This document shows, one piece after another, positions 32,715 through 59,184 of a stretch of 64,000 bases of DNA (within the stretch, counting starts at the first letter, position 1; the number at the start of each line of letters is the position of its first letter). The notes beneath the pieces are model-generated. The model saw nothing but the letters and a program-made list of their open reading frames with translations. It made no database searches and was not told the DNA's origin. Source of the stretch: Gammaproteobacteria bacterium (lineage in GTDB: Bacteria; Pseudomonadota; Gammaproteobacteria; Steroidobacterales; Woeseiaceae); the NCBI GenBank assembly GCA_022600955.1, contig JAHZJK010000024.1, positions 1 through 64,000 on the forward strand. The letters run 5' to 3'. Both the position numbers and the translations under genes were made by a program.

Positions 32715-32740
32715 CTATTAGCTGAGCGAATACATATTCA

Positions 32741-32777
32741 AAGCCCATCTCTGACAAAACAGGGATGGGCTTTTTTC
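32741..32777 (+). terminator. trp attenuator terminator
   Basis: AAGCCCATCTCT-GACAAAAC-AGGGATGGGCTT forms a 12-bp stem with one G-U pair and an 8-base loop, followed by TTTTC. It is a strong rho-independent terminator placed 16-17 bases before trpE and after the Trp-rich leader peptide, the position required for attenuation. Confidence 0.92.
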
Positions 32778-32793
32778 GTTTTAGGAATGACTT

Positions 32794-54098: not shown

Positions 54099-54127
54099 AG
54101 GCCGGGCTTTTGCCCGGCCTTTTTTAT
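54099..54127 (+). terminator. intrinsic terminator after ald
   Basis: AGGCCGGGC-TTTT-GCCCGGCCT is a perfect 9-bp stem followed by TTTTTTA. It serves ald; the T-run overlaps the stop codon of the convergent aldehyde dehydrogenase gene. On the other strand there is no T-run after the stem. Confidence 0.93.
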
Positions 54128-55548
54128 AGCGTCTTCAATACCATCATCTTGTCAATCTGCATATCGCTGATCGTGTGCGGAATCCCGCCGACGCCCAGTC
54201 CGGACTGGCGCAACCCTGCAAACGGCATGACATCGTCGCGGAATGCCGAGTGATCGTTAATCATCACTGCGGACGCATCGAGCAGACGATACAGCTCAGT
54301 CGCGGTATTGATATCGTCGCAGTAAACGGCCGCCTGGAACGCGACCGGCAGGCTGTTTGCCTGTTCGATGGCGTCGGCAACATGGTCGTAGCCGTAAACG
54401 CATACGACGGGCCCGAATATCTCCAGAGAGCTGACCTTGGCATCTGCCGGCGGGTTTAGCAGTACGGTCGGTGCGTAGCAGCTGGCGGAGATTTTTCTTC
54501 CGCCGCAAAGCAGCGTTGCACCCGCGGCGACCGCGTCGTCGACCCACCCGGAAACACGCGTAAGCTCGGCGTGGCGAATAAGCGGCCCGACCTGGGTTGC
54601 TTCGTCCTCAGGAGCGCCGACGACAAGTTCTTCAGCCTCCGCCGCGAGGCCTTTCGCAAAATCTTCCGCGATTTCGTTCGGTGCGAACACCCGTTGCACG
54701 GATACACAAACTTGGCCTGCATGATAAAAGCCGCCCTTGGCCACTGACGCGAGTGCCATGCCGGGATCGAACGGTTCGGCGAGAATAGCCGGAGCGGCGC
54801 CGCCGTGTTCCAGTGCGCAGCGCGTACCAGGCGCAAGTTTCGAGCGCAGCATCCAGCCAACTTTGGCGCTGCCAATAAAACTGAAAAACCCGACGCGCGA
54901 ATCCGTTACAAGTTTTTCCGCAGTTTCAAGATCATTGGCGACCAGCACCTGTGCCCAGCTATCCGGCAGGCCTGCCTCGCGCAGAATCTCGACGAAGCGG
55001 ATGCATGATAATGGCGTGTCGTCGGCGGGTTTGACGATGACAGGGCAACCGGCCGCGACGGCCGGCCCGACCTGGTGCACGATGAGGTTGAGCGGATGGT
55101 TGAAAGCGCTGACGGCGACGACCACGCCAATCGGCTCTTTCTGCGTGAACGCCTTTCGGCCCGTCGTTGCCGGTGTGGTACCGAGTGGTACGACGTAGCC
55201 GGCCTCGGCGCGCAGTGATTCGATGCACAAGCGCACGCCGTCAATAGCCCGAATCACCTCCACCCTTGAGTCGACACAGGGCTTTCCGCCTTCGCTCGCG
55301 GCCAGCAGGGTGAGCTCATCGACCTCTGATTCCATGATTGCAGCGGCACGAGAGAGGATTTCGATTCGCGCCGGAACGCTCAACCATCCGTCGCGATTGC
55401 GAAACAATGCTCGAGCCGCCGTCAGCGCATCTTCGACGTGATCAACATTCGCGGTCGCCACGTGGCCGAGTTCGCGGCCGTCGTACGGCGACGTAACAGT
55501 CAGCATGCCGGCTGCCGGTCGATCGCTGGCAAGCATCAGATCGCGCAT
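54124..55548 (-). CDS. aldehyde dehydrogenase family protein
   Basis: A 474-residue NAD(P)-dependent aldehyde dehydrogenase. The cofactor-side VVVAVSAFNHPLNLIVHQVGPA and VIVKPADDTPLSC are present, the catalytic Glu lies in ALEHGGAAPAI and the nucleophile Cys in HAGQVCVSVQRVF. The C-terminus PFAGLRQSGLGVGG is normal. The N-terminus overlaps the upstream ThDP-enzyme gene by 13 bases, indicating translational coupling. The likely substrate is whatever aldehyde or semialdehyde that enzyme produces; the sequence alone resembles succinate-semialdehyde / glyceraldehyde-3-phosphate-type members only loosely. Confidence 0.9.
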   Translation of the reverse strand: MRDLMLASDRPAAGMLTVTSPYDGRELGHVATANVDHVEDALTAARALFRNRDGWLSVPARIEILSRAAAIMESEVDELTLLAASEGGKPCVDSRVEVIRAIDGVRLCIESLRAEAGYVVPLGTTPATTGRKAFTQKEPIGVVVAVSAFNHPLNLIVHQVGPAVAAGCPVIVKPADDTPLSCIRFVEILREAGLPDSWAQVLVANDLETAEKLVTDSRVGFFSFIGSAKVGWMLRSKLAPGTRCALEHGGAAPAILAEPFDPGMALASVAKGGFYHAGQVCVSVQRVFAPNEIAEDFAKGLAAEAEELVVGAPEDEATQVGPLIRHAELTRVSGWVDDAVAAGATLLCGGRKISASCYAPTVLLNPPADAKVSSLEIFGPVVCVYGYDHVADAIEQANSLPVAFQAAVYCDDINTATELYRLLDASAVMINDHSAFRDDVMPFAGLRQSGLGVGGIPHTISDMQIDKMMVLKTL

Positions 55549-57188
55549 GTGATCTCACCGAGCTTTTTCGTCAGCAGTGCATTTTCGCGATAGTCGATTG
55601 GGATAACGACAAGGCTGGGGCCATCCTCCGCGAGGGCCGCATCCAGCGTGCCTTCGAGATCACGGGCATTGCTAACATAGTGACCTTGCCAGCCGAATGC
55701 TGCAGCAAGCCCGTTCCAGTCCGGGTTGCCGAACGCGAGATCCGTATGCCTGCCGTAGTGTGACTCCTGCTTCCAGGCGATCAGGCCGTACTCGTTATCC
55801 TCCCAGACCATCGCGACAATGTTGCTGTTAAGCCGCTTCGCCGTCTCCATCTCCTGCACATTCATCAGGAAGCCGGCATCGCCGCAAATGGCCAGGACGC
55901 GACGTTCCGGACTAACAATGCTGGCGGCGATCGCACCCGGCAATGCGAAACCCATCGAACAAAAACCGTTTGGTATCAGGCAGGTGTTGGGCTCGTGGCA
56001 CTGGTAGTGACGCGCAATCCACATCTTGTGTGCACCGACATCCGACAACAGCACGTCCTGCGGTCCCATTACCTGGCGAGCATCCCAGAGTGCTTTCTGC
56101 GGACGGATGGAGCCCTCGGTGTCATCGTCCTTGTGCTCTGCAAAGTCTGCCGCCATGTCCGCGCGTACTTTGCGTTGCAGCTCCAGGTCGAAGTTTGGCA
56201 GCCCGTGCTCGGCGACCCGTTCATTCAGCATCCACAAGGTGTGTGCGAGGTCGCCGATCAGCTCCGTTTCGGGGTGGTAGTGTTCGTCGATTTCGGCTGG
56301 CAAGAAGTCTGCGTGCAGTATTTTTTTGTCTTTGTGACTGTTCCACAGTTGTGGGTGGTATTCGACCATGTCGAACCCAAGCGTGATGACGAGATCGGCG
56401 TCGTCGATCGCCTGCGAGACACGGTCTTTGCTGCCCAGCCCCACGGTATACAGACAGTAGTCGGCGTCCATATCGACCGAGCCTTTCGCCATGAAAGTGC
56501 TGATCACGCCGATGCCGGTTTTTTCGCAGAGCTCCCTGAGCTGAGCGCTGGCGCGACGCCGTATGCAACCGTTGCCCGCGATGATGATCGGCCGCTGTGC
56601 GCTGGTCAGCATTTCGAATGCCTGGTTGACGATCTTGTCGTCGGGCACCGAACGACGGAAGCGGCGCGGCAACATCGGCGTTCCGGATGCTGGCATCGAG
56701 GCGATGTCTTCCGGAAGTTCGATATGGACCGCGCCGGGCTTCTCTGTGCGGGCAAGTCGCACGGCCTTGCGAATGATCTCCGGAATCGTCTCCGGATTAA
56801 GAATCGTGGTGGCCCACTTTGTCACCGGCTTGAACATGGCGACAACATCCATGATCTGGTGCGACTCCTTGTGCAGCCGGTCGGTTGAGCCTTGTCCGGT
56901 CAGCACGAGCATTGGTGCACGATCCATATTGGAATCTGCAACACCCGTAATCAGGTTGGTGGCGCCCGGGCCGAGCGTGCCGAGCGCACCCGCGGGATTG
57001 CCCGTGAGCCGGCCGTAAATCTCGGCCATGAACGCAGCGCCCTGCTCGTGGCGCGTCAGGATGAATCGGATCTTCTTCGATTTCTCCAGCGCCATCATGA
57101 AGTCAGCATTCTCTTCGCCGGGTACGCCAAAAATATACTCGATCCCTTCCTCTTCCAGGCACTTCACCATCAGATCAGACGCGTTCAT
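55536..57188 (-). CDS. acetolactate synthase-like ThDP enzyme
   Basis: A 550-residue ThDP-dependent enzyme of the acetolactate synthase large-subunit superfamily, closest by pattern to catabolic AlsS/IlvB proteins. The ThDP-activating Glu is in LTRHEQGAAFMAEIYGRLTG, GTLGPGATNLITGVADSNMDRAPML is the AHAS signature, and the Mg/ThDP motif starts as CGDAGFLMNVQEMETAKRL (GDA where GDG is usual) and ends near WEDNEYG. No small regulatory subunit is encoded nearby. With the coupled aldehyde dehydrogenase, a 2-oxoacid decarboxylase role is as plausible as acetolactate formation. Confidence 0.85.
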   Translation of the reverse strand: MNASDLMVKCLEEEGIEYIFGVPGEENADFMMALEKSKKIRFILTRHEQGAAFMAEIYGRLTGNPAGALGTLGPGATNLITGVADSNMDRAPMLVLTGQGSTDRLHKESHQIMDVVAMFKPVTKWATTILNPETIPEIIRKAVRLARTEKPGAVHIELPEDIASMPASGTPMLPRRFRRSVPDDKIVNQAFEMLTSAQRPIIIAGNGCIRRRASAQLRELCEKTGIGVISTFMAKGSVDMDADYCLYTVGLGSKDRVSQAIDDADLVITLGFDMVEYHPQLWNSHKDKKILHADFLPAEIDEHYHPETELIGDLAHTLWMLNERVAEHGLPNFDLELQRKVRADMAADFAEHKDDDTEGSIRPQKALWDARQVMGPQDVLLSDVGAHKMWIARHYQCHEPNTCLIPNGFCSMGFALPGAIAASIVSPERRVLAICGDAGFLMNVQEMETAKRLNSNIVAMVWEDNEYGLIAWKQESHYGRHTDLAFGNPDWNGLAAAFGWQGHYVSNARDLEGTLDAALAEDGPSLVVIPIDYRENALLTKKLGEITCAI

Positions 57189-57393
57189 ATGATTTCCTGT
57201 GTGATTTATCGCTTCGTGGTTTTATTTGCTTATGGCTCTTAGGACCGGTGCGCAACCAACAATATTTCGCGCCGTTGTCGAATGCTGACTGCTCGAGACT
57301 CAATCACGTCGTCACGAGCGTTCGTAATAATCTGTAACTCGCATGGGTCATCTTGTGTAGCTCAGGTAGCGAGTCAGGGACACCGGTTTGTCG

Positions 57394-57432
57394 GGCAGTC
57401 TCCGTATGCACCCACTAACTAAGGAGACTGCC
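57394..57432 (+). promoter_or_regulatory. SD-sequestering hairpin before the YHS gene
   Basis: GGCAGTCTCC (57394-57403) and GGAGACTGCC (57423-57432) are perfect 10-bp inverted complements with a 19-base loop. The 3' arm contains the GGAG of the Shine-Dalgarno sequence and ends exactly at the ATG (57433). In RNA this would hide the ribosome site, so translation should depend on opening the stem. A protein operator with the same symmetry is an alternative reading. Confidence 0.75.
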
Positions 57433-57885
57433 ATGAAATACTGGAAACGAGTAATGCTTCTGCCGATCACGATGTCGATCCTGTTAGCCGCAACTACAGC
57501 ACAGGCCGAACAGACGCGACCCGCCGCCATTGGTGGTTATAGCCCGGTGTCGTATTTCACTAAGAATACCGCAGAACTCGGCAGTGCCGAGTTTGCCGTC
57601 GAGCACGATGGCAGCGTCTATCACCTGACCTCGCAGGAGCAGGTTAGAATTTTTGCTGAACATCCCGACAAGTATCGCCCGCGACATCGTGCCTGCACCT
57701 ATAGCCTCGCGTACGGCATGGTTTTGCCGCTGGACCCGACCAACTTCAAAATAATCGGCAATACGCTGCTCTTGTTTCACCGCTCCGAAGAAAAGGATGC
57801 GTTGCTGGAGTGGAATAGTTCGGAACTGAGCGAGGAAGAGTTGCTGGAGCGGGCGGACGCGAACCTGTTCCTGGTGACTTTTTAG
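57433..57885 (+). CDS. exported YHS-domain protein
   Basis: A 150-residue periplasmic protein with a signal peptide ending ATTAQA-EQT. A YHS-like domain follows: AAIGGYSPVSYFTKN, FAVEHDGSVYHLTSQEQVRIFAEHPDKYRPRH, and CTYSLAYGMVLPLDPTNFKI. The cysteine often found after the first Gly-Tyr (GYCPV) is Ser here, and a single Cys follows the KYRPRHRA stretch. Exported members of this group are often annotated as YHS domain proteins without known role; metal binding is a guess. The ATG at 57433 with AAGGAG is certain. The leader holds a strong SD-blocking hairpin. Confidence 0.85.
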   Translation: MKYWKRVMLLPITMSILLAATTAQAEQTRPAAIGGYSPVSYFTKNTAELGSAEFAVEHDGSVYHLTSQEQVRIFAEHPDKYRPRHRACTYSLAYGMVLPLDPTNFKIIGNTLLLFHRSEEKDALLEWNSSELSEEELLERADANLFLVTF

Positions 57886-57900
57886 GGCCGAACGCTCTAC

Positions 57901-59184
57901 TCAAAACCGGATCTCCGCGCAGTCTATCGCGAGTAGCAATTCAGTTAGCGCGTTGTAGCTAAGCGGGTTGCGGGCGGTTATGTCATCGATCTTTTGCATG
58001 CGTGCGTAAATAGTATTGGGGTGTAGAGTCAGTGCCTTAGCGGTTCTCTGCGCATTCATGTCGGCGTCGGCATAAGCACGCAGAGTTTCTGACAGTGCGC
58101 CGCGAGCCCTTGCATCGGCCGCGTTGAACGCGCCAATCCATTCGGGCAAGGTTGAACGCACCTGGTCGGCCGCGGCGCGTACCAGAACGTCGCGAAACGG
58201 AATGCCTGAGTAGGATACAACACGATTGCCGACGCTGGCACAGTCCAGCGCGAAACGTGCCTCGCTCAACGCGCGGGGGATGTGCGCCGTTGATGGCTTG
58301 TCGGTACTGACGCCGATCAACGCTGCGGTTCCGACTGTGCGCAATGCCGGGTAAACGCGGTCCGCCAACAAGGACTGCGGTGCGGTCCAGCCAGACAGGC
58401 GACGCGTTCCCGAGAGGATAAGCATTACCTGGGCGTCGCTGATTCCGATCAGCGCGCGGTAGGGCAGGTTGCGTATGGCGTGACTGAGTGCATCCACCAT
58501 GCGTTGCGCGCGAGCGGTGTTTTCCATCTCTTTCGGGTCGACGGAGCGTGCAACGGCAACGCAGTACGACTGGCGATGTTCGAGATAGCCTGCGCGACGC
58601 AGTAGTTGTGCCGCCCGGCTGTCGGACTCGTCGTAGCCGCGCAGCAATATGTTGAGCAACTCGGAGCGTCGGTCACCTTCTGCCTCGGCGAGGACGCGTG
58701 TCTGCAACACGTACTCCGAGGTGATGATGTTGGTGATCTCGCCCGCATACTGATTAACGAAGTCACCGGCGGCGGCAACCACGCGGCGCAATTGCGCGGA
58801 ATCGTCGGCGGCCTGTGTGGCGGCGTCTCGAATAGCGCTCGCGAAGCCTCGATGGAGCCCCCGATAGGCAGCCAGTTCGGCGTCCAGCGGAAACTTCTGG
58901 TTAGCGCGCTGGCGGGCGTGATGACGGACAAAGCTGAACTCGCCGGGCTGCTGTCCGCTGAGCAGTCGGCAGACTTCGCTGGCGTGGTCGTGGAGATGCG
59001 CCTTGAGCTCTGGAATGACGTCCGGATTGCCCGATGCCGTGAAGGCCGGCACCTGTTCCAGTATTGATTCCAGAACGGACCGCGTGAGCGCGCTGGCCCG
59101 TGCCTCCAGCACGTTGCCGCAATCCGGAATCACGCGCAGCTGGCGCAGACCCTGGAGTGAAGTTGGCAGAGAGCTTGAGGCCAT
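57901..59184 (-). CDS. PucR-type transcriptional regulator
   Basis: A 427-residue regulator of the PucR/CdaR kind. An N-terminal helical domain and a GGDEF-like-fold middle part (residues ~200-330, AALIGVSTDKPSTAHIPRALSEARFAL) are followed by the C-terminal HTH_30: LRAYADADMNAQRTAKALTLHPNTIYARMQKIDDITARNPLSYNALTELLLAI. Members respond to small molecules and often control nearby catabolic genes. The start at 59184 has no visible ribosome site and lies 3 bases from a palindrome that could be an autoregulatory operator. It is divergent from the YCII-like gene. Confidence 0.9.
   Translation of the reverse strand: MASSSLPTSLQGLRQLRVIPDCGNVLEARASALTRSVLESILEQVPAFTASGNPDVIPELKAHLHDHASEVCRLLSGQQPGEFSFVRHHARQRANQKFPLDAELAAYRGLHRGFASAIRDAATQAADDSAQLRRVVAAAGDFVNQYAGEITNIITSEYVLQTRVLAEAEGDRRSELLNILLRGYDESDSRAAQLLRRAGYLEHRQSYCVAVARSVDPKEMENTARAQRMVDALSHAIRNLPYRALIGISDAQVMLILSGTRRLSGWTAPQSLLADRVYPALRTVGTAALIGVSTDKPSTAHIPRALSEARFALDCASVGNRVVSYSGIPFRDVLVRAAADQVRSTLPEWIGAFNAADARARGALSETLRAYADADMNAQRTAKALTLHPNTIYARMQKIDDITARNPLSYNALTELLLAIDCAEIRF

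Follow-up and report, generated by a model that had tools for sequence, protein, structure and literature searches.

Leader hairpins that sequester the Shine–Dalgarno (SD) sequence, and so occlude the ribosome-binding site (RBS) in cis, are single stems that pair the whole SD and end at the start codon. RNA thermometers of the ROSE and FourU types, in the outline given for example in PMC3669281 and PMC10639063, likewise have their SD base-paired within a hairpin immediately upstream of the AUG. A hairpin of this shape precedes the gene of a YHS-like protein in the window (the whole stretch of DNA analysed, 64,000 nucleotides). A first-pass annotation had described it as a perfect 10-bp hairpin at 57394–57432, and this is exact to the base in the arms, the loop length and the position. 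On the plus strand, the 5′ arm, GGCAGTCTCC (57394–57403), is followed by a 19-nt loop (57404–57422), predicted to be unpaired, and by the 3′ arm, GGAGACTGCC (57423–57432). The 3′ arm contains the GGAG of the SD and its last base is position −1 of the start codon; the full pairing of GGAG that had been claimed is confirmed by ten perfect pairs. The SD as a whole reads AAGGAG, with 6 nt between it and the ATG at 57433. The stem is GC-rich and is free of mismatches, bulges and G-U pairs, and the SD bases are paired in the most stable predicted fold, as expected of an SD-sequestering leader hairpin. This minimum free energy (MFE) fold has −28.7 kcal/mol (z −3.9); in it a second, outer helix extends the stem into the coding region, with its 5′ strand at 57383–57387 and its partner at 57441–57445, a pairing seen in the MFE fold only. 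The loop also holds an in-frame ATG (57406–57408) that lacks an SD and is predicted to be open. Starting there could add nine residues (MHPLTKETA) ahead of the likely start at 57433, and the signal sequence of the longer protein would still look normal.

The gene (57433–57885, plus strand) is solitary and encodes a protein of 150 residues with an N-terminus that, by eye, resembles a signal peptide, and with a YHS_seleno-like domain. Its description as a YHS protein was broadly right, although the score against the NCBIfam model YHS_seleno_dom (NF041384; 66.2 bits, E 2.9e-18) falls just under the curated cut-off of 70 bits and the match to Pfam YHS is weak. All 14 relatives in the alignment keep the family's cysteine. 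The structure model of the product is confident (pLDDT 89.6), and no PDB entry matched it at E below 0.001. Two chains of cilia or axoneme complexes came closest; by sequence they match adenylate kinase 9 and cilia- and flagella-associated protein 276. Ranked below them were hydroxylases of phenol and toluene monooxygenases, matched locally over short stretches. On one side of the YHS gene is an acetolactate-synthase-like gene in divergent orientation, and on the other a PucR-type regulator that converges with it. Beside this regulator the window has genes of acetolactate-synthase-like and of aldehyde dehydrogenase type (54124–57188 and 57901–59184, minus strand), probably a catabolic unit, and the YHS gene runs between them in the opposite direction. 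In the literature that we found, the function and regulation of exported YHS proteins appear to have been little studied; if the hairpin acts as predicted, it would be a case of simple translational control in this exported family.

How unusual the hairpin is was judged against a single contig of 459,654 bases that contains the window. A simple gene caller placed 326 genes on it (89% coverage), the starts of which are guesses; 55 starts lie in the window. The predicted cost of opening the SD of the YHS gene is 12.6 kcal/mol, second among 325 starts (median 3.4), and that of opening the RBS from −13 to +3 is 17.0 kcal/mol, third among the same starts (median 7.0). The z-score of its leader ranks fourth of 325, and over a wider footprint (−20 to +15) the opening cost ranks only 30th. 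The most structured leader among the 325 starts belongs to another gene (G000:C35, 0-based position 212432, reverse-complement strand; z −6.2). Within the window, a perfect 10-bp terminator-like stem (AAAGCCCATC/GATGGGCTTT with a T run; 32740–32793) stands directly upstream of a predicted start whose leader has a z of −4.2.

The contig itself is enriched in perfect inverted repeats (10 bp or longer, loops of 3–30 nt): it has 34, five of them in the window, whereas twelve Markov shuffles gave 12 ± 3. Nineteen of the 34 have loops of at least 10 nt (about nine expected), and terminator-like stems account for part of the excess. One start in 325, that of the YHS gene itself, has its SD covered by the 3′ arm of a perfect stem of 10 or more pairs, compared with 2 of 975 control positions; with 55 starts in the window, about 0.1 such stems are thus expected there and several per genome. 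The annotation had considered so exact a match unlikely by chance. Among some 325 genes it is indeed extreme, but an extreme of this kind is to be expected somewhere in a genome, and the frequency of such stems is compatible with pure chance over a genome. Perfect 10-bp hairpins abutting start codons, expected a few times per genome, should be read with corresponding caution.

The protein is rare and patchily distributed; it or a close relative is carried by 4 of 107 genomes of the family (the window's own included), and two further carriers came from the order, sampled in two draws of some 396 genomes. Nine orthologs were examined, in G106 (68% identity), the congener G014 (66% identity), G069, G627, G503 and G471 and at L021, L022 and L023; searches of the families of G627 and G503, the second order draw, plasmids and viral contigs gave none further at comparable similarity. 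Conservation of the arms as a pair had been proposed as one test of a riboregulatory role for the hairpin, and it went against such a role: the arms are kept in none of the nine, the leaders are not alignable, and local alignments of the window leader with those of all orthologs score near shuffled controls. Pairing preserved by covariation was accordingly not seen among the nine homologous leaders, an analogous stem being present only in G014. The nearest ortholog, in G106, can form only a weak alternative of 8 pairs, and its opening cost is median, and paralogs and more distant members of the family have no comparable stem. Nor do the orthologs share flanking genes that would mark a conserved neighbourhood. 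In G471 the YHS gene adjoins genes of the DUF2063 and MbnB/TglH/ChrH families and a small signal-peptide-like ORF (L061:8052–10612), a neighbourhood reminiscent of metal-linked bufferin-type operons.

Whether the hairpin matters at all depends on where the mRNA begins. The stem has a pair probability of 1.0 with every 5′ end tried from 57200 through 57394, and for those up to 57397 the probability that GGAG is unpaired is about 0, the stem being weaker when the transcript starts at 57397 itself. SD occlusion is therefore strongly predicted for any transcript that contains the 5′ arm. Once the 5′ end lies at 57400 or beyond, the predicted cost of opening the SD falls to 2–3 kcal/mol, below the median. 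On these models, a start before about 57397 should give low translation and a start after about 57400 should leave the hairpin absent. It is conceivable, though rather unlikely, that the second case applies and that this is a chance inverted repeat of no consequence for the RNA, with transcription beginning in or after the 5′ arm and leaving a short open leader. Similar perfect repeats occur about once per 14 kb of the contig, and the control positions yield stems like this one; against such a start, a promoter scan of the region found no sigma-70-like site that would place it there, which is weak evidence either way. The same perfect symmetry, in a divergent intergenic region of 244 bp, could instead serve a dimeric transcription factor that binds both arms as DNA and blocks or aids transcription. 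We regard such an operator as very unlikely, in that the repeat is unique (the genome has no other copy, even with three mismatches allowed) and its arms are not conserved in the orthologs. The DNA helix has 10.5 bp per turn, and by our own reasoning the 29 bp between the centres of the arms are wide and do not make a whole number of turns. Single half-sites in the window, considered as a possible regulon, occur in a chance number and were rejected as such.

The annotation itself favoured a riboregulator. The strong predicted occlusion of the SD, near the top among all starts of the contig, bears this out in part, but the absence of the arms from nine orthologs does not, and control by temperature is disfavoured: the predicted probability that GGAG is unpaired is at most 0.004 at 55 °C, and a stem without mismatches or G-U pairs that stays shut to that temperature is unlikely to be a simple thermometer. 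Searches of Rfam gave no riboswitch or leader family, either at the gathering score or at E up to 5, and no terminator was found at the hairpin site. Nothing observed pointed to the metal, small-RNA or protein dependence that the annotation had also named. Under some condition the stem might nevertheless be opened, and the gene switched on, by a small RNA or a protein, by nuclease cleavage or by refolding of the leader. We consider a conditional switch of this kind unlikely, given that the eight orthologs other than G014 show no conservation and that G106 has so little in its place; it stays in consideration mainly because of G014. There, an unrelated stem, non-homologous in sequence (TGGTCTTGTCC, a 23-nt loop, GGGCGGGATCA), forms 11 pairs, four of them G-U, and likewise ends exactly at −1. 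Its SD-opening cost of 11.2 kcal/mol is higher than at any of the 293 other starts examined across 400 kb of the G014 genome, although the likely SD, AGAGGGG (−16 to −10), lies only partly within the stem. Corrected for nine orthologs, this extremity amounts to about 0.03 on its own background or 0.08 on that of the window's contig, where 3 of 325 starts, the YHS start included, reach at least the G014 value. The G014 stem is thus a suggestive lead for selected occlusion rather than proof of it; as an independent stem at the same place, it would fit selection for occlusion and, perhaps, genuine regulation. It would be quite unlikely, on our assessment, that this patchy gene has repeatedly gained start-abutting, SD-closing hairpins of unrelated sequence in the genus (G000, G014), with selection acting on the occlusion as the sequence itself is replaced, and that these hairpins belong to a switch by which conditions control the exported protein.

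The best single reading of the hairpin, to which we give a probability of roughly 0.4, is a lineage-specific leader element that would keep translation constitutively low, provided that the mRNA begins 5′ of about 57397, and that would need no dedicated sensor. Such an mRNA would contain the 5′ arm, which would pair with the whole GGAG and close the ribosome site. Residual entry of ribosomes might come from transient opening, from binding during transcription or from the in-frame ATG in the open loop. With an apparent Boltzmann factor of 0.45 mol/kcal (PMC3936740), from a model fitted on other mRNAs, our arithmetic turns an excess of about 10 kcal/mol over the median into roughly 90-fold less translation than from a median start. 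We count in favour of static damping the high costs of opening the SD and RBS, the dominance of the stem with every 5′ end tried up to 57394, the absence of the arms from orthologs, the lack of an Rfam match and the lack of a conserved neighbourhood that might point to a circuit. Counted against it are the empty promoter scan, as the 5′ arm may lie outside the transcript, the G014 stem and the chance-level frequency of such stems. A conditional switch is less likely than this reading; restricted to one genome and about as frequent as expected by chance, the hairpin is, at best, a weak candidate for a switch controlling the gene.

Set beside the described systems, the YHS-gene stem has the architecture of SD-sequestering leader hairpins but differs from them in its lack of conservation. 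From the RNA thermometers, as far as PMC3669281 and PMC10639063 outline them, it differs in being perfect, GC-rich and predicted to stay closed to 55 °C, and in preceding a gene that is not a heat-shock gene. In type I toxin mRNAs, as outlined in PMC11228461, the primary transcript likewise has strong structure that shuts the SD until the RNA is processed; the product there is a small toxin, whereas here it is an exported YHS-like protein.
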